From positions 62,001-126,000 of the forward strand of contig JAHDGK010000006.1 of NCBI GenBank assembly GCA_020627685.1: 64,000 bases of DNA, written 5' to 3'. The notes beneath the pieces were generated by a model. That model was not told the DNA's origin. It worked only from the letters and a program-made list of their open reading frames with translations, and did not search any database. Source of the stretch: Granulosicoccus sp. Its GTDB lineage: Bacteria; Pseudomonadota; Gammaproteobacteria; Granulosicoccales; Granulosicoccaceae. The position numbers were made by a program, and so were the translations under genes. Below, piece after piece: positions 167 through 8,395 of the stretch. The first letter of the stretch is position 1. Each line of letters opens with the position of its first letter.

Positions 167-2551
167 ATGAACACGCGCACGCTCGTTATCTGTCACTCAT
201 TGCTTGTAGTTATGCTGCCTTCCAGTGCAGTGGCCCATGAGATGTGGGTGTTGACTGATGAGGTGATCGGGGCATGGCGCGATAGACCATGGCCAGCGAC
301 TTACACTAATTTTACACTGCCCACCGTTTTGACGTTATTGGTTGCCTTGGCGATCAATGGGATTTTGGTGCGCCTGCATTTCAATGGTGCAAATGAGCTT
401 TTTCCACATTTCAGAGCGCATATGCGAGCCCTGCGGCCTTATTCGGCGCTCGTACTACGCGTGTGTTTAAGCTGGGTATTGCTCTCATCTGCAATGGCTG
501 TTGAACCTCGTTTTGGGAATGATGTTTGGAGTAATCCGACGCTTTTGGCTCCCGACATCCTTATAAGTGACTTACCTGAGAGTTGGCGATGGCTACGTTG
601 GTTTGAATTTTCCATAGGCATTGCATTAGCTGCAGGTGTATATGTGCGTGGTGCTGCTGTAGCCTGTCTATTGCTAGTATGCAGTGCGTTATTCCTAACT
701 GGAATGGCCGCTGTGTCCTATGCACCTATTTATGCTGGTGTAGCTCTTTATCTATTGGTGTCGGGTGGTGGAGCATATTTTGTACCTCTGCCTGCGCCTC
801 TGCATATAAAACTGATAACAGATAAGTTCGAAAGTAGCAAATCAATAAGTCGTGCGCAGTTCATAGTCAGAGTTTTTGCAGGATTTAATTTTCTTTTTCT
901 AGCAATCTACTTTAAAGTTCTCCAGCCAAATCTGATGCTGGCTATCATTGAAGTGCATGAGCTACCTGTTATGGGGCTCAGCCCTGATGTTTTCGTGCTC
1001 ATTATTGCCGCTGTAGAAGTCTCGATTGGCTTTCTGGTCATATTCGGAATTCTATTGCGTTTCTTGTCTATCGTATTGATCGCAGCGTTTATATTTTTCG
1101 CAATCTGCTTATCTGATGCGGAAACGTTGACATCTCATATGTTGTACTACGGAGTAGCTGTCTCATTTTTATTTAATGGCAACGGGCAATGGAATAGAAG
1201 ACAGCCGACTGATGTTGCGTCGAACATTATCATTATTGGAAACTCAATCTCTGCTGTAGCAGCTGCTCAGCATCTGGAAAAAATACTTCCTAATCCAAGT
1301 AACATAAATTTAACGTTGCTGAGTCGACGAACTGATGTTCAGTTCAAGTCCCTACTGCCAGAGGTGGTGTCGGGTTCTGTTCAACCGAACACACTGATCA
1401 ATCCGTTATTGCGCGTTTTGAATAGAACAAACCTGCTGCTCGGCGAAATACGCTCTATTGACCTGAAATCAAGAGAAATTGCATACGCGCTGCCGGGAGG
1501 AGTCGTCAACACACTTTCGTATGATCAACTTATTGTGGCAAATGATTCAACGACTAATACGGAGATAGAAAGTCAGACCGGTTTTCAAGGTATTCATCAT
1601 TTGGATAGCGTCGTTGATGCGATGAAGCTAAAACAAAACCTACTTCGTTGTAGTTTCCGTAATTACGGTAATTCTACTCAGTCAAGCCAAACTCCAATCA
1701 GTATTGCTATATATGGTGGTGGAGAGCGAGGTTCCGCATTGGCGATGGAAATTCATAGGCTCACGGATGCCTTGAAAGTTGACCGAGTTATACCCTGGTG
1801 TACTAATAACAAGGTTATTCTGCTGGAGACTGTTGAAGAACGAAATAACATGGGCGGTGCCATCATCAGGCTTCGTGAAAGGCACTTCGAAAAGCGAAAT
1901 ATCAAAGTAATTGACGCTATCAGAGTTGGAACCTTATGTAGTGATTCAGTAAGGTTGAGAAATGGCAAAGCGGTACCTATGGACATTGTGGTGAACTTGT
2001 CCACACGTGACTCATTACCACCGTTTATCCATTTTGATAATTCGGTAACCCGTATACGGGAGGATGATTTATCGTTGCGCGGCGAATCCTGTGTTTGGAT
2101 GGCTACACATGAGAAAGAGCTTAAAGAGAATTCTCAAAGGCGAATGTCCATGCAACTTGAGCAAGCCCGGTTAGCAGCGTTTAATGCCTGGGCTAGTTCC
2201 CAGGGGCTAGAAGTTCGATCGTTGAGGTCTGTCCATAAGTCTCTCTATGAATGCTACATGGGCAGAAATTCTGTAGCTACGTGGCGCGGGATTGCGTTAC
2301 CGGGCGTCATCGGATGGCTGTTTAACCGTCGGCGTTATTTAAGCACTCTGCCGAGTCTTGATCGTAAATTGAGAATTATCATAGATTGGACGCTAGACTG
2401 TGTTTTTAACGCCGACTCAGTGAGCCCTCTGGAGCATGACTTTGAAGTAGGTGAGCGAGCACTCATGCGGTCTTTAGATTCGGGTAATATTGAAAAGCCA
2501 GACAAAACCAAATTCGAAGCGCAAATAGATTCGGTCAACAAAGCTGCTTAA
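167..2551 (+). CDS. DoxX-like membrane domain fused to degenerate NDH-2-like oxidoreductase
   Basis: The 794-residue protein has a signal-like N-terminus (about 1-23, ending AVA before HEMWVL) and then about eight hydrophobic segments between residues 49 and 338, resembling DoxX/DoxD-type membrane proteins. From about 350 it resembles type II NADH dehydrogenases: FKSLLPEVVSG at 393-403, a second nucleotide-binding loop GGGERG at 517-522, and the typical C-terminal segment around GIALPGVIGWLF at 708-719. The first glycine motif, which should hold FAD, reads GNSISA (358-363), with two glycines replaced. The usual late GD motif is also not evident near 640-650. The flavin site may therefore be lost or altered. 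By eye it is more AT-rich than its neighbours. It is convergent with fbpB, 17 nt apart. The domain calls are fairly firm; the function is unknown. Confidence 0.7.
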   Translation: MNTRTLVICHSLLVVMLPSSAVAHEMWVLTDEVIGAWRDRPWPATYTNFTLPTVLTLLVALAINGILVRLHFNGANELFPHFRAHMRALRPYSALVLRVCLSWVLLSSAMAVEPRFGNDVWSNPTLLAPDILISDLPESWRWLRWFEFSIGIALAAGVYVRGAAVACLLLVCSALFLTGMAAVSYAPIYAGVALYLLVSGGGAYFVPLPAPLHIKLITDKFESSKSISRAQFIVRVFAGFNFLFLAIYFKVLQPNLMLAIIEVHELPVMGLSPDVFVLIIAAVEVSIGFLVIFGILLRFLSIVLIAAFIFFAICLSDAETLTSHMLYYGVAVSFLFNGNGQWNRRQPTDVASNIIIIGNSISAVAAAQHLEKILPNPSNINLTLLSRRTDVQFKSLLPEVVSGSVQPNTLINPLLRVLNRTNLLLGEIRSIDLKSREIAYALPGGVVNTLSYDQLIVANDSTTNTEIESQTGFQGIHHLDSVVDAMKLKQNLLRCSFRNYGNSTQSSQTPISIAIYGGGERGSALAMEIHRLTDALKVDRVIPWCTNNKVILLETVEERNNMGGAIIRLRERHFEKRNIKVIDAIRVGTLCSDSVRLRNGKAVPMDIVVNLSTRDSLPPFIHFDNSVTRIREDDLSLRGESCVWMATHEKELKENSQRRMSMQLEQARLAAFNAWASSQGLEVRSLRSVHKSLYECYMGRNSVATWRGIALPGVIGWLFNRRRYLSTLPSLDRKLRIIIDWTLDCVFNADSVSPLEHDFEVGERALMRSLDSGNIEKPDKTKFEAQIDSVNKAA

Positions 2552-2568
2552 ACACGGTGTAATCATAG

Positions 2569-4614
2569 TTAAACAGCGTGTTTGGATGTCCCGACCGTAG
2601 TAATTCCGGCAGCTTTTAATTCCTGCGAACGGTCAATACTAACCGTGAGCAGAACAACTGGTACTAATCCGACCAATACAATAAGTAAAGAGCCAAGGGC
2701 GGCTTCACCAATCAGTTCATCGGATGCGTACTGATAAACGTGAGTGGCGAGCGTATCAAAATTGAAGGGTCTCAGTACCAGAGTAGCCGGAAGCTCTTTC
2801 ATACAATCTACAAACACAACCAAGGCTGCGGTTAGTACGCCGCTTTTCATTAAGGGCAGATGTATGCGGGAAAGTATGGTGAGGGAAGAGTGTCCTAATG
2901 ACCGTGCTGCATCGTCCATGTGGGGGCTGATTTTTTTCATACTGGCATCGACCGAACCGTATGCCACCGCCAGAAATCGAACCGTATACGCGAATACCAA
3001 TGCGAACACGGTGCCGCTGAGTAGCAAACCGGTAGAGATGTCGAAGTGACTACGCATTAACGCATCTATGGCATTGTCTATAGCAGCGAATGGAATAATA
3101 ACCCCAATGGCCAGTACGGCACCGGGAACAGCGTACCCGAGGCTTGAAATACTGACGCTGGTTTTTAACAATTTTGTTGGCCTTAGTCGCTGACTGTAAC
3201 TTAATAAAATACCAACACTGACTGCAGCAGCCGCTGCTGTGGCTGACAAGGCGATAGAATTCATCGCTATCTGTCGGAAGTCTTCTGTATACGACAGCTC
3301 GAAATATCGTATGGAGTAGTTAAGAAGAACCCATGCAGGAACCAGAAATCCCAAAAGAATAGGCAGTGCACAACTTGTCGTAGCCAAGGCTGCAGACTTG
3401 CCGGTGAGTCTTCTGCGATCCAGTTTGCGGAATCGAGATGCGGTGGGCTGAAAGTGTTCACGGTGACGCCGGCTGGTTTTCTCCAAGCCTATAAGCATCA
3501 TGACAAAGATGAGTAGTAAGGAGGCTATCTGCGCGCCACCTCCGAGATTGTTCATACCGAGCCACACATCATAGAGGCCCGCGGTGAGTGTTTGCACCGC
3601 AAAATAGTCAACGGTGCCGAAGTCGTTAAGCGTTTCCATTAAGGCCATGGCCAGTCCAACTGCAATGGCAGGCCTTGCCATAGGCAGAGCGATTTTAAAA
3701 AAACGACTTCTGGATCGACCGCCGAGAATTTTTGCGGCTTCCAATACAGAGGCTGATTGTTCCAAAAAGGCTGCTCGTGCCAGCAAATAGACATAGGGAT
3801 AGAGCACGAGAACCATCATGCTGATGGCGCCGGGTAATGAGCGAATACTGGGGAACCAATATTCGTTTGCCAGCTTCCAACCAAAGGCTGACCTTAGGGC
3901 GCTTTGCACCGGTCCAGCAAACTCCAGTAGGTCGGTATATATGTACGCAATAACGTAGGCTGGTACCGCGAAGGGCAACAGCAACGCCCAATTAAATATG
4001 CTGCGCCCGGGAAAATCGTAGCGGGTTACCAGCCACGCTGTGCTAACACCGATGCACAACGTTCCGAAAGCCACCCCGACCATAAGTATCACGGTATTGC
4101 TTATGTATCTCACCAGAACAGTATCGAGTAGGTGAGGCCAAATGTTCTCTTCGGGGTTAAACGCCAAATACAGAACAGACAGTATGGGCAAACAAACGAC
4201 AAAGGCAACAATCAAAGCCACCAGCGGCCAACCGCTAATTGATGCCCAGATGCCATTCGATAAAGACAAGTACCGGTGTCGTTGTCTGTCCTGATAAGTG
4301 GCTGCGCGATCCGCGTCGGTCAGTACTCTTTGCAGGCCGTGCGTCGGGGTGCCTGGTATGTGCTTTCGGTATTGAATTGTCGGGAACGGTACCGAATGTC
4401 TTTTAGGGTGAACCGCTGTGTTGCTAAGTTGGCGTGTGTTTGCAATTCTGCGGGCACTGAAACGGTAACTACCCCCTGGCCAACTCACGGCTGAGGGGGT
4501 AGCGGATTGATAGGATGTTGATGAGCCCCAGCTGGCTCTGACTCTGCCGGTAACCGCGCCACCCAGAGAGGGCAGCTTGGTTGCTGACAATTTATCCGGC
4601 TTATCAGCCGTCAT
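2569..4614 (-). CDS. fbpB: Ferric iron ABC transporter permease, FbpB type, with N-terminal extension
   Basis: This is the inner-membrane permease that passes ferric iron from the FbpA-type binding protein into the cytoplasm. It is a fused double permease: two six-helix halves, each with an EAA-type loop for ATPase contact (EAAKILGG near 291 and DAARSLGH near 567). The family is usually about 520-560 residues. Here about 120 Ser/Thr/Arg-rich residues precede the first membrane helix (about 128). The ATG used overlaps the fbpA end by 11 nt. A TTG at 4269 would give a family-sized 566-residue protein but has no clear ribosome site. An open frame of 115 codons would arise by chance with probability about 0.004 ((61/64)^115), which favours the long form. 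No ATPase gene follows. Confidence 0.82.
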   Translation of the reverse strand: MTADKPDKLSATKLPSLGGAVTGRVRASWGSSTSYQSATPSAVSWPGGSYRFSARRIANTRQLSNTAVHPKRHSVPFPTIQYRKHIPGTPTHGLQRVLTDADRAATYQDRQRHRYLSLSNGIWASISGWPLVALIVAFVVCLPILSVLYLAFNPEENIWPHLLDTVLVRYISNTVILMVGVAFGTLCIGVSTAWLVTRYDFPGRSIFNWALLLPFAVPAYVIAYIYTDLLEFAGPVQSALRSAFGWKLANEYWFPSIRSLPGAISMMVLVLYPYVYLLARAAFLEQSASVLEAAKILGGRSRSRFFKIALPMARPAIAVGLAMALMETLNDFGTVDYFAVQTLTAGLYDVWLGMNNLGGGAQIASLLLIFVMMLIGLEKTSRRHREHFQPTASRFRKLDRRRLTGKSAALATTSCALPILLGFLVPAWVLLNYSIRYFELSYTEDFRQIAMNSIALSATAAAAAVSVGILLSYSQRLRPTKLLKTSVSISSLGYAVPGAVLAIGVIIPFAAIDNAIDALMRSHFDISTGLLLSGTVFALVFAYTVRFLAVAYGSVDASMKKISPHMDDAARSLGHSSLTILSRIHLPLMKSGVLTAALVVFVDCMKELPATLVLRPFNFDTLATHVYQYASDELIGEAALGSLLIVLVGLVPVVLLTVSIDRSQELKAAGITTVGTSKHAV
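4469..4502. repeat. 9-bp inverted repeat inside the fbpB N-terminal extension
   Basis: CTACCCCCT and AGGGGGTAG form a perfect 9-bp stem around a 16-nt loop. It lies between the fbpA stop and the first fbpB membrane helix. No T-tract follows on either strand, so it is not a classical terminator. In the fbpAB transcript it could act as a processing or stability hairpin that lowers permease output relative to binding protein. That role is inference. Confidence 0.45.
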
Positions 4615-5638
4615 AATCGACCGTGTCTACTAAACGGCTGGCATTGGCTCTTTGGGCAGCTATTTCATTAAGAGATAGCGTGTCTTTTTTGAATTCTCCC
4701 CAGCTGCTAACCAACTCAGACGGTGCAACATCTGCCTTTATAGGATATTCGTGGTTATTAGTCGCATACATAGACTGTGCGCTGTCGCTGGCAAGAAATT
4801 CCAGCAATTTTATCGCGCTATCGCGGTTAGGTGAGGCTTTTGTCAAAACCACGCCGCTAATATTCATGTGGGTTCCGCGATCTGACTGATTTGGAAAGAC
4901 GACGTTAACGGAATCAGCCCATGCTTGCTGGTCCGGATTGGTCATCATAGCGCCCATGTAATAGGTGTTGATGATGGCAACATCGCATTCTCCTTGGGAT
5001 ATCGCTTTGACCTGGGCTCGGTCATTACCCTGAGGTTTTCTGGCCAGATTGCCTTTTACCGCAGTTAACCAGTCTTTGGTCGCCGCTTCACCCTCATGCG
5101 CCATGACAGACGCAATTAGTTCAACCATATAAGAGTGTTTGCCGCTTCGTGTGCAAATGCGACCATTCAATTCAGGTTTGGCAAGGTCTGCGTAATTTTC
5201 GATTAAACCGTCGCTCACTCTATCTTTGGAGGTGACGATAATACGCCCTCTAGATGTGAGGCCGTACCAGTGACCATCGACATCCCTAAAGCTTGCAGGA
5301 ATGTTGGCATTGAGCACATCGTTATCAACGCTTTGTGTCACACCTGCCTCAACAGCGGCAGCAAGGTTGCCAACATTTGTCACTAGTACAAGGTCAGCAG
5401 GGCTGTTAATGCCTTCGTTCTCAAGGCGCTCGATCAGCCCTGTTTTAGCGAAAACCGTATTGACTTTAATACCAGTTTCAGCGGTAAACGCGTCAAAGAT
5501 CGGATCGGTTAAAAACTGCTGTCTATAGGAGTACACATTGACTTCATCGGCGCTGGCTGCAAGCGGGGCTGTCAGTGTGGCGAACGGCAGCGCAACAAGA
5601 AGTGCAGTTTTAGAAAACATGTGTGTAATTTTTCGCAT
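4604..5638 (-). CDS. fbpA: Periplasmic ferric iron-binding protein of ABC transporter, FbpA/IdiA type
   Basis: This 344-residue solute-binding protein captures ferric iron in the periplasm and delivers it to the FbpB permease. A signal peptide covers residues 1-30 (hydrophobic core LLVALPFATL, cleavage after ASA). The mature protein starts DEVNVYSYRQ, as in Fbp/Fut/Idi proteins, and carries the iron-ligating tyrosine pair Y226-Y227 in INTYYMGA. The start at 5638 is preferred; an internal Met7 would also keep the signal peptide. It is first in the fbpAB operon and overlaps fbpB by 11 nt. A Fur-type operator lies about 45-65 nt upstream, so it should be repressed when iron is replete. Family and role are secure by motif and context. 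Confidence 0.9.
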   Translation of the reverse strand: MRKITHMFSKTALLVALPFATLTAPLAASADEVNVYSYRQQFLTDPIFDAFTAETGIKVNTVFAKTGLIERLENEGINSPADLVLVTNVGNLAAAVEAGVTQSVDNDVLNANIPASFRDVDGHWYGLTSRGRIIVTSKDRVSDGLIENYADLAKPELNGRICTRSGKHSYMVELIASVMAHEGEAATKDWLTAVKGNLARKPQGNDRAQVKAISQGECDVAIINTYYMGAMMTNPDQQAWADSVNVVFPNQSDRGTHMNISGVVLTKASPNRDSAIKLLEFLASDSAQSMYATNNHEYPIKADVAPSELVSSWGEFKKDTLSLNEIAAQRANASRLVDTVDYDG

Positions 5639-5680
5639 GGATGATCACATTTAAGTTAAACAGAAGTTGTTGGAGAGACT

Positions 5681-5702
5681 AATACGAATCATTCTCATTA
5701 TC
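5681..5702 (-). promoter_or_regulatory. Fur box upstream of fbpA
   Basis: Read on the minus strand the site is GATAATGAGAATGATTCGT followed by ATT, three consecutive NAT(A/T)AT-like hexamers close to the Fur consensus GATAATGATAATCATTATC. It sits 43-64 nt upstream of the fbpA start, where a promoter would be expected. A TTGATA element overlaps its left part. This indicates iron-Fur repression of fbpAB. The call rests on consensus match and gene context. Confidence 0.8.
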
Positions 5703-5736
5703 AACCATGCATTTAGTAAGGATATACCTGAGTAAA

Positions 5737-6597
5737 TTAGTCGGCTATTTCAGGTGACGGGTATACGCGCTTACGGAGCAAGCCCCGCTGAGGCGCAAAT
5801 AAAAACACCACGATAAAGATACAACTGAGTACGACAACAATGGTCGGGGCGGGGGCACTGTCTATGTGGTAGCTCAGCGTGATGCCAAATACGGTCGCAA
5901 CTACGCTGATGACTATTGACCACCACATCATGTGCTCAAAGCGTTTGGTGAGCAAAAAGCTGATAGCACCGGGCGCAATTAGTACGGCTATCACCAGGAT
6001 AATGCCAACAGCTTTTATCGAGGCCACGATGACCAACGATAAAATGCTGAGCAAGCCGTAGTGTAGAACCGTCGTGTTAAGGCCTACCACTTTTGCGTGT
6101 TGAGGATCGAACGCAAAGACCAGTAAGTCCCGTCGCTTAATAATGATTAAAAAGAACGCTGGCAGTGTGAGCGCAGCGGTTAGCCCTATGTCTTTCCATG
6201 AGACGCCAAGCATGTCCCCAAAGAGTATTTCGTCAAGATGAAGATCTGTACGGACCTTAGTAAATAATACAACTCCCAGAGCAAACAGGCCGCTGAACAC
6301 AACTCCCATTACGGTGTCTTCTTTAAGGCGGCTATTGTTAGTGAAATAGCCGGTTGATATCGCGCAAATCATACCGGTCACGAATGCCCCGATAATAATG
6401 GGAATATTCATAAGGTAGGCGATAACGACACCCGGTAGAACCGCATGAGATACGGCATCCCCCATCAGTGACCACCCCTTTAAAACCAGCAAGCAACTAA
6501 GTACTGAGGCAGATGTAGCCACCAATAAGGCGATCACCAGCGCTTGTTGCATGAAGTCAAACGTGAATGGTTCCAATAGTGTTTGAATAAAATTCAT
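5737..6597 (-). CDS. sitD: Manganese/iron ABC transporter permease, SitD type
   Basis: This 286-residue integral membrane protein of the ABC-3 (ZnuB/SitCD/MntB) family has about eight or nine hydrophobic helices. Family features are LKGWSLMGDAVSHAVLPGV near residues 40-59 and a late LVIAVLIAPGAISFLLT segment that faces the ATPase. It is last in the four-gene operon and overlaps the preceding permease by 4 nt, so translation is probably coupled. With its sister permease it would form a heterodimeric channel, as in SitABCD. Metal preference is inferred from the binding protein and the neighbouring MntR-like regulator. The 98-nt gap after it holds the fbpA promoter region. Confidence 0.85.
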   Translation of the reverse strand: MNFIQTLLEPFTFDFMQQALVIALLVATSASVLSCLLVLKGWSLMGDAVSHAVLPGVVIAYLMNIPIIIGAFVTGMICAISTGYFTNNSRLKEDTVMGVVFSGLFALGVVLFTKVRTDLHLDEILFGDMLGVSWKDIGLTAALTLPAFFLIIIKRRDLLVFAFDPQHAKVVGLNTTVLHYGLLSILSLVIVASIKAVGIILVIAVLIAPGAISFLLTKRFEHMMWWSIVISVVATVFGITLSYHIDSAPAPTIVVVLSCIFIVVFLFAPQRGLLRKRVYPSPEIAD

Positions 6598-7472
6598 TCA
6601 AGCGACTCGTGTGACTGCTGAGCCATCAAGCGCTGGGTAGCGCGACGACGATTTGCTAACACACCGTGTTTCGGGCCTGCAATAAAAGCGATTAAGAAAA
6701 TCGCAGTTTGTAGCAGAACAATAACTGCACCTGTAGCTCCGTCCAGAAAGTAACTGATGTATGCACCGACGCTACTGCTAAACAAGCCGATCAAAACGCT
6801 AATGACGATAAGCTTGCTGAACCTGTCGGTAAGTAGGTAGGCGGTTGCACCGGGAGTCACTACCATGGCAATCACTAAAAACGCGCCGACTGTCTGGAGT
6901 GCTGCAACAGTTGAGGCACTAAGGAGCGTAAAAAACAGCACTTTGAGTGATTTTACTTTGAGGCCGATGGAGTGAGCATGCGTTTCATCGAAGAAAACCA
7001 CCATAAAATCTTTCCAGAACGCCAACAAACAGCAAAGGGTGATGAGTCCGATAATCGCTAACTGAAGAGCATCAAACGGCGTTACCGCGAGTATGTTGCC
7101 GAACACGATGGTGTCTATTTTGACTGAGGTAGGGGACAACGAAGCCATGAACAGGCCCAGACCGAAAAAGCCGGTAAATATTAGCCCGATAACCGCATCG
7201 GTACGTAGTGCTGAACGTTGCGATATAAACAGCATAGATGCCGCAGCAAGACCACCTGAAATGAACGCACCTAAAGAGTAGGGAAGGCCCAGCATGTACG
7301 CCCCGGCAACACCCGGTACAACAGAATGTGACAGAGCATCTCCGATAAGCGACCAGCCTTTGAGCATCAGGTAGCTACTAAGGAATGCACAGATAACTCC
7401 CACCAAAGCACTACACCAAATGGCATTCACCATATAGGAATAGGAAAACGGCTCAAGCAGGTAGTCAATCAT
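6594..7472 (-). CDS. sitC: Manganese/iron ABC transporter permease, SitC type
   Basis: This 292-residue ABC-3 family permease is a paralogue of the downstream permease. It carries the same [19 protein letters not shown] block (about 38-56) and [17 protein letters not shown] near residue 220, with about eight or nine membrane helices. It overlaps the ATPase gene upstream and the second permease downstream by 4 nt each. Two different permeases, rather than one dimerising with itself, matches the Sit/Yfe-type layout A-B-C-D. The C-terminus is basic and cytosolic ([10 protein letters not shown]). Confidence 0.85.
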
Positions 7473-8395
7473 TCTTTAGGAGTTTCGCCGTCACCGTAAA
7501 GTACGAACGGCCGTTCGTCATCCGAAATGACGGTCACCTGTCTTTGATCATCATCATCGTGCAATTCGTTTCCACCCAGAACATGGAAACGCAAAGTGCC
7601 TCCAAAGGCCTGTTCTAAATTGGCTTGTGTAAAGACTTGTTCTGTTTGCCCGGCATCCAGGACGCGCCTGTTAACGAGTACAACCTGGTCGCAAAACTGA
7701 GGGACACTTCCCAGGTTGTGTGTTGATACAAGCATGACCCTACCTTCGTCGCGCAGGTTTCTAAGCAGCTCGATAATGGCATCTTCTGTGGTGACATCGA
7801 CACCGGTGAAGGGCTCGTCAAGTAAAATGACTTGTCCTTCCTGGGCAAGTGCTCGTGCCAGGAACACCCGCTTTTTCTGTCCACCGGACAATTCGCCAAT
7901 TTGTCGGTGCCGGTACTCTTGCATATTGACCCGGTCAAGGGCTTCATTAACTTTGCGTTTGTCAGTTTCTGACGGGCGACGTAAAAATCCCATGTGTCCG
8001 TACCGGCCCATCATGACAACATCTTCAACCAGTACCGGGAAATTCCAGTCGACCTCTTCGTTTTGTGGAACGTAGGCGACGGTATTTCTGTCGAGGGTGC
8101 GTCCGGCTTCCTGGCCTAGTATTTTAACGCTGCCGCTGGCCAACGGTACCAACCCCATAATGGCTTTAAACAGCGTTGATTTCCCAGAGCCGTTTATTCC
8201 TACCAATGCACAGATAGTGGAGGTAGGGATGGAGAAGGTTGCCTCAGAAAGTGCGACGTTTCCATTGCGGTATACCACGCTGACACCGTCAGCCTTGATA
8301 CCGCTGCCCGCAGGCTCGAGTGATTGTTTGTGGCGAAGCTGGCTACGCTCGTCAATGAGTACTTCACTACCTAGCGTGTGGTTGGCGGCATTCAC
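7469..8395 (-). CDS. sitB: Manganese/iron ABC transporter ATP-binding protein, SitB type
   Basis: This 308-residue ABC ATPase powers metal import. Walker A is GINGSGKST at 66-74. The signature LSGGQKKR, Walker B VILLDEPF and the H-loop STHN follow in order. The first ~35 residues and the acidic C-terminal tail (HDDDDQ, then a Glu/Asp-rich end) extend beyond the usual ~250-residue core; the tail might bind metal, but this is only suggested by composition. It overlaps the binding-protein gene upstream and the permease downstream by 4 nt, so the four-gene operon appears translationally coupled. Confidence 0.88.

Follow-up and report, generated by a model that had tools for sequence, protein, structure and literature searches.

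A DoxX–NDH-2-like fusion protein of Granulosicoccaceae with a degenerate flavin site and a retained NAD-type glycine motif

Introduction

In the sections of PMC5299459 drawn on here, NDH-2 enzymes are marked by a first glycine motif of the form GxGxxG or GxGxxA (the latter in 9% of NDH-2s), a GD motif, a quinone motif reading AQxAxQ, AQxAxR or APxAxQ, and a GxGxxGxE motif; the data set described there was chosen by the presence of a C-terminal extension and the absence of a fused domain. The same sections report that Glu172 of the S. aureus enzyme is conserved in 97% of 1762 NDH-2s and propose it to be key to proton transfer. Among the open-licence papers listed, none appears from its title and abstract to treat the fusion described here.

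The gene described here lies in a stretch of 64,000 nucleotides from Granulosicoccus sp. (assembly GCA_020627685.1, contig JAHDGK010000006.1, positions 62,001 to 126,000), which is referred to as the window.

Methods

The NDH-2-like halves of four degenerate fusions (from the window genome and the genomes coded G006, G029 and G057) were compared with 28 other NDH-2-like rows, comprising eight intact DoxX–NDH-2 fusions and 20 single-domain proteins, many of which came from the same genus. The intact fusions aligned were L004–L010 and L012 (L007 starts at a contig edge), and L011 was left out. For the comparison of GC content, 49 window open reading frames of at least 150 amino acids were picked by a script. 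No dN/dS values are given because dS was mostly saturated; pN and pS are reported.

Structural models were calculated with AlphaFold2 from the four sequences and had a mean pLDDT of 41 at full length and 52 for the C-terminal half, so that no claim was made to rest on them.

Results

The fusion gene and its occurrence

The window gene is a single intact frame with an ATG start and zero internal stops (Table 1), and its product consists of a probable signal peptide, a tandem DoxX-like membrane half (residues 1–345) and an NDH-2/Pyr_redox_2-like half (residues 346–755). In Pfam scans Pyr_redox_2 (PF07992) matched residues 353–609 (E = 8.8e-10, 38.9 bits against a cutoff of 26.1) over profile positions 2–232 of 291, a partial match, and scored above the gathering cutoff in all four degenerate fusions. 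The DoxX (E = 0.0027) and MauE (E = 0.0013) matches at residues 231–315 were both under the Pfam cutoffs; DoxX (PF07681, cutoff 23.6 bits) scored 18.7 bits in the window protein, 17.2 in G006 and 21.4 in G057, and exceeded the cutoff in G029 (24.1).

A search over 57 relatives found full-length fusions in G006 (63% identity) and G029 (45%), and G057 was added when 48 genomes of the order were searched with a profile, bringing the degenerate fusion to four of the 48; a fifth match, in G025, was an intact-type fusion. In a sample of 369 genomes of the class (E 1e-20) the window's own fusion was the sole one, the other four matches being one lone membrane half (G179) and three lone NDH-2-like proteins, and a plasmid search with the whole window protein gave one weak NDH-2-like match and no fusion. 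The degenerate fusion is so far known from one bacterial family, Granulosicoccaceae, and from four members, two of which are near relatives.

The earlier note on this DNA had described DoxX-type helices and an NDH-2-like region in one 794-residue chain, which the intact frame and the orthologues confirm, and had allowed for two separate genes having been merged through a sequencing error at about residues 340–350. The membrane half does occur as a gene of its own in other Proteobacteria, but the junction aligns in four genomes of two genera, which come from different public records, and the frame is open through to the end in each of them. Since the fusion recurs in four of the 48 genomes of the order and both halves are under purifying selection (see below), the fusion is no artefact, and an assembly error retains a negligible probability. 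Of the further claims made for the locus, that of a gene AT-richer than its surroundings held: its GC content (0.451) is the minimum of the 49 long window frames (mean 0.500, s.d. 0.017), as is its GC3. The orthologues in G006 (0.460 against 0.484 for the locus) and G057 (0.467 against 0.494) are also low, and that in G029 is not AT-rich (0.528 against 0.527).

Table 1. Coordinates of the fusion gene, of sites in its product and of genes at related loci (window positions unless a locus is named; residue numbers refer to the window protein).
Feature	Position	Strand	Basis
Fusion gene, 794 amino acids	167..2551	+	Frame, Pfam, orthologues
Probable signal peptide, residues 1–23, cleavage A23/H24	167..235	+	Assigned by eye; Ala/Ser before His in 8/8 of the eight-protein alignment
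HExW motif, residues 24–27; presumed mature N-terminus His	236..247	+	H, E and W invariant in 8/8
First DoxX-like repeat, residues 86–225, approximate boundaries	422..841	+	Hydropathy; sub-cutoff DoxX match at 103–183 in G057
Second DoxX-like repeat, residues 226–345	842..1201	+	Sub-cutoff DoxX/MauE matches at 231–315; DoxX just over cutoff in G029
NDH-2-like half, residues 346–755	1202..2431	+	Pyr_redox_2; PDB matches led by NDH-2 9mqy
Degenerate FAD motif GNSISA, residues 358–363	1238..1255	+	Alignment with relatives
Kept LPEVVSG element, residues 397–403	1355..1375	+	L397 and E399 clade-invariant, also in at least 80% of the 28 others
Glycine lost after YDQL strand (D460)	1544..1546	+	Gly in 28/28 others, 0/4
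Kept NAD-type GGGERG, residues 517–522	1715..1732	+	Three glycines in 4/4
A524, where GxGxxGxE has its catalytic Glu (S. aureus NDH-2 E172)	1736..1738	+	Ala in 4/4; Glu in 27/28 others
E554, acid ending the second strand of the NAD-type fold	1826..1828	+	Glu in 4/4; acid in 18/28 others
Glycine lost from STIGT/WAAG strand (T613)	2003..2005	+	Gly in 28/28 others, 0/4
Site of lost GD motif (T647 H648)	2105..2110	+	G and D in 28/28 others, 0/4
C-terminal segment, residues 691–755, with clade-specific YMG and W706 and amphipathic stretch	2237..2431	+	Alignment
ABC permease and binding protein, ZnuA-type set, DtxR-type regulator, downstream of the fusion	2569-8395; L031:18393-19890		Order identical in G006
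GHAH gene beside HExW-DoxX gene	L042:12343-12783		
GHAH gene beside HExW-DoxX gene	L061:9182-9637	-	
GHAH gene beside HExW-DoxX gene	L062:9405-9872	-	
GHAH gene beside HExW-DoxX gene	L064:10745-11269		
GHAH gene beside HExW-DoxX gene	L073:7992-8420		
YHYH-domain and secreted AHAH proteins (G029)	L033:6873-8485		
Phaeobacter-type locus	L062:9405-12319		
Phaeobacter-type locus	L073:5499-8420		

Loss of the flavin site and retention of the NAD-type motif

The first motif reads GNSISA at the place of GxGxxG, as had been noticed from the sequence, and its third glycine is replaced in all four degenerate fusions (by Ala in three and Ser in one) and kept in all 28 other rows. The same division, none of four against 28 of 28, applies to the glycine after the YDQL strand, the glycine of the STIGT/WAAG strand and each residue of GD, where the alignment spans very divergent sequences; the late GD motif had likewise been described before as not evident, and GD as a dipeptide is absent from the whole window protein and from the NDH-2-like half of all four members. 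The second glycine of the first motif, invariant in the others, is gone in the window protein and G006 and kept in the remaining two. The first Ala of the AQxA quinone motif is present in none of the four and in 28 of 28, and the Gln in none and in 25 of 28. The acidic residue that ends the second FAD strand was found in one of four against 26 of 28 others with two columns allowed, and counts for little here, as this column shifts from group to group.

By comparison with the first motif, the NAD-type GGGxxG keeps its three glycines in all four members and the strand that follows ends in Glu in all four. The glutamate that should follow this motif in GxGxxGxE is Ala throughout the clade and Glu in 27 of the 28 others (the exception being L005). 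Overall, 26 columns are fixed in 27 or all of the 28 others; the clade keeps nine of these (in three or four rows) and not the remaining 17. Measured against the marks listed in PMC5299459, as given in the sections used, the window protein lacks the FAD motif, GD, the quinone motif and the complete GxGxxGxE, and it carries a fused domain.

Conservation of GNSISA among homologues had been proposed as support for a new function, and this did not hold: the motif is GNSIGS in G006 and GNGLAA in G029 and G057, G358-N359 being its sole invariant part. GNGLAA would pass as GxGxxA and the motifs of the window protein and G006 would not, and the first motif of the window lineage has decayed further than that of the GNGLAA members. 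The claim that the NDH-2-specific C-terminal segment is kept stood in part: an amphipathic R/K-rich stretch remains in the window protein (RYLSTLPSLDRKLRIIIDW), but NDH2_C (PF22366) matched none of the four members at E 0.01. The intact fusion L004 does match this profile.

In sequence searches of the PDB, run with the protein by itself and with a profile built from four relatives, NDH-2 enzymes came out on top, led by 9mqy (E = 7.7e-14 with the four-row profile). With the half model (pLDDT 52) Foldseek returned mycobacterial NDH-2 first (TM-score 0.28) and VIA-align S. aureus NDH-2 first (Z = 11.2, r.m.s.d. 7.9 Å), both lists also containing many other two-domain flavoproteins.

The clade-wide loss of the flavin site speaks for a function different from NDH-2 catalysis, and because the flavin-binding residues, the catalytic Glu and the quinone motif are all lost the half may be described as a putative pseudo-oxidoreductase. 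The NAD(H)-type site is the sole cofactor site with a surviving glycine motif, and the NDH-2-like half is probably no longer an enzyme but a binding or control domain. On balance we favour, with a modest degree of confidence, a pseudo-NDH-2 that lacks flavin and probably binds NAD(H), fused to a DoxX-like membrane protein facing the periplasm. The earlier suggestion of a move from redox catalysis to another role is upheld to this extent; of the roles then named, flavin sensing is disfavoured, as is quinone sensing because AQxA is gone in all four.

Some flavoproteins bind FAD through altered motifs. The window protein might accordingly still hold FAD in an unusual manner and act as an NADH-dependent reductase whose electrons would go to the membrane half or a partner. 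Its overall kinship to NDH-2 and the kept NAD-type glycines would suit such an enzyme, and the GxGxxA retained in G029 and G057, a form tolerated in NDH-2, together with G358, L397 and E399, which persist across the clade, would speak against a flavin-less protein. Set against them is the loss in all four members of five flavin-associated positions, the catalytic Glu and the AQxA quinone motif, joined in the window protein and G006 by the second glycine, and we consider a working flavoenzyme distinctly unlikely.

Selection and conservation

Both halves are under purifying selection. Between the window gene and its G006 orthologue pN/pS was 0.191/0.796 for residues 1–345 and 0.300/0.788 (a ratio of ∼0.38) for residues 346–755; the pN of the whole gene (0.264) exceeded that of four flanking genes (0.088–0.184), so that the fusion gene evolves faster than its neighbours. 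The membrane half was the more conserved in all six pairs of members (71% against 57% between the window protein and G006), its second DoxX-like repeat being the best conserved part of the window protein (86% identity to G006). Within the NDH-2-like half the NAD-type part is not better conserved than the FAD-type part, the identities being 58% and 53% between the window protein and G006, and 32% and 36–37% between the window protein and G029 or G057; this, like the pace of the whole gene, counts against the preferred flavin-less, NAD(H)-binding reading.

The better conservation of the membrane half is also compatible with constraint having been relaxed in the NDH-2-like half. The membrane half might then work alone, as its separate occurrence elsewhere and the higher pN of the NDH-2-like half would allow, the latter being a remnant in slow decay or a mere extension for folding and anchoring in a gene that as a whole outpaces its neighbours. 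Yet the frame remains open in all four genomes, the pN/pS ratio of the NDH-2-like half is ∼0.38, and 86 of its 422 positions are invariant in the clade. Of these, 27 are clade-specific (present in at most 5% of the other 28 rows), among them Y697-M698-G699, W706, and A674-W675 with S678-Q679, and they argue for new constraint and against plain decay. A remnant is for these reasons judged unlikely.

Intact DoxX–NDH-2 fusions

The search for other DoxX–NDH-2 fusions that had been proposed yielded, besides the three further degenerate ones, intact fusions in nine other genomes of the family (L004–L010, L012 and L084); the ninth (G032, L084) was confirmed to be full length and lies outside the alignment. 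The eight aligned are of ∼670–730 residues and all keep the flavin motifs. Homologues with an intact GxGxxG and ordinary NDH-2 activity had been named as evidence against a change of function; fusions with intact motifs do exist, but form a clade separate from the degenerate group (support 100/100). The membrane halves of the two types are weakly comparable (hhalign probability 23%, E = 0.0009) and a common origin of the two fusion types was not rejected (AU p = 0.111); the branch to the degenerate clade measures 3.62 changes per column, a length at which long-branch effects are possible.

No intact type was found in the four degenerate-type genomes at 1e-15 and no degenerate type in the nine intact-type genomes at 1e-25, a mutual exclusion that may be chance at such numbers. 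In a class sample of 321 genomes five matches were obtained at 1e-60, each over the NDH-2-like half only, and of 326 plasmid records matching an intact fusion none did so over 80% of the query. In L004 the DoxX part also matches the HvfX Cu-RiPP maturation model, at 32.3 bits against a cutoff of 80.

The membrane half, its relatives and their neighbours

Lone homologues of the membrane half were found in G179 and in the alphaproteobacterial genomes G498, G512 and G851 (three of the 149 genomes in their family); a phylum sample of 398 genomes held two lone membrane halves besides the window. A further 58 Phaeobacter plasmid records match the membrane half, and the 20 of them listed are annotated as hypothetical protein. 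In the alignment of eight proteins Ala or Ser closes the likely signal peptide immediately before the invariant HExW. Hydropathy and loop charges weakly fit an N-terminus outside and an NDH-2-like half inside. In the Phaeobacter-type loci the HExW-DoxX gene follows an annotated vanadium-dependent haloperoxidase (VCPO/PAP2 matches just sub-cutoff).

In G057, G498, G512, G851 and a P. gallaeciensis plasmid the adjacent gene is for a small, secreted protein bearing GHAH and DH motifs; among five standalone membrane halves examined it adjoins four (that of G179 being the exception). Pfam scans of three of the five GHAH proteins gave zero matches. A related GHAH protein adjoins a multicopper oxidase in G020 (L071), and at three of four further loci (L080–L082) one adjoins a membrane protein with a His near the presumed mature start. 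The GHAH protein was not found in the window genome or G006 (1e-5) or in G179 (0.001), and the G029 match is located elsewhere in the genome and contains a stop. Near the G029 fusion gene lie genes for a YHYH-domain protein and a 178-residue secreted protein with AHAH at the presumed end of the signal peptide.

The flanks shared by the window and G006 hold a divergent S15-type hydrolase, two ABC uptake sets, of which one is ZnuA-type and the first after the fusion gene is presumably iron-type, and a DtxR-type regulator. These shared flanks were not seen in the neighbour lists of G029 and G057, for which reason function was not drawn from the neighbourhood.

An N-terminal His can serve as a copper ligand, as in histidine-brace proteins. 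The window protein might by analogy act in periplasmic copper handling, the His of HExW being a metal ligand and the NDH-2-like half setting the redox state. The invariance of HExW would agree with this, as would the GHAH genes beside the membrane half at five loci and the relative beside the G020 multicopper oxidase. DoxX genes are moreover part of the core of copper-binding bufferin clusters in the portion of PMC12452194 consulted, and the Gig system of Cupriavidus includes a DoxX-like protein in that of PMC10304878. The GHAH gene is, however, missing at the above thresholds from the window genome, G006 and G179, and the fusion gene of the window is flanked by ABC uptake genes, a ZnuA-type set among them, and not by copper genes. 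We regard the GHAH, bufferin and Gig facts as leads to a possible metal role and not as evidence for the window protein, and copper handling itself as very improbable.

Discussion

In the flavin-less reading that we prefer, the fusion would reside in the inner membrane, where the exported membrane half would place a short segment beginning with the His of HExW in the periplasm. The cytoplasmic half, which derives from an NDH-2-like flavoenzyme, would now be a flavin-less pseudo-oxidoreductase; most likely it would bind NAD(H) and relay to the membrane half either the redox state of the cytoplasm or a structural contact. Taken further, it could be an NAD(H) sensor fused to a possibly metal-binding DoxX-like domain, through which cytoplasmic redox would control a periplasmic process; this extension is tentative and we think it rather doubtful.

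The clade-wide loss of the flavin site next to a kept NAD-type motif offers a natural test case for the possible conversion of a respiratory flavoenzyme into a nucleotide-sensing domain, and the occurrence of both fusion types in one family makes an apparently active and a degenerate version directly comparable. The standalone membrane half and its GHAH neighbour constitute a gene pair to which Pfam gives no confident name and which the fusion brought to light.

Comparison with known systems

NDH-2 enzymes (such as 9mqy, 5na1 and 4nwz) match the C-terminal half best in both sequence and fold. The window protein has in common with them the NAD-type GxGxxG, the L397/E399 element and the amphipathic C-terminal stretch, and differs in having a fused membrane domain and in lacking the FAD glycines, GD, AQxAxQ and the catalytic Glu (E172); the NDH-2 data set, in the sections of PMC5299459 cited, excludes fused domains, whereas the window protein has a 345-residue N-terminal membrane half. 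The best NCBIfam match of the C-terminal half was TIGR03169 (Nterm_to_SelD pyridine nucleotide-disulfide oxidoreductase, E = 1.5e-07), but with 31.1 bits against a cutoff of 310, and the window protein is without the SelD part.

The membrane half resembles membrane proteins of the DoxX (PF07681), MauE and HvfX types in its helical repeat and weak Pfam matches, and differs from them in the tandem repeat and the presumed periplasmic HExW segment. The features of the unnamed HExW-DoxX family are all found in the window protein (a signal peptide assigned by eye, HExW and tandem DoxX-like repeats); the standalone members from G179, G498, G512, G851 and the Phaeobacter plasmids are homologous to residues 1–345, including HExW and K..QP.L, but are without an NDH-2-like half. 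The intact fusions of the same family share the arrangement, with a tandem DoxX-like half in front of an NDH-2-like half; in the eight aligned the FAD-site features are intact and the alignment contains no HExW segment.
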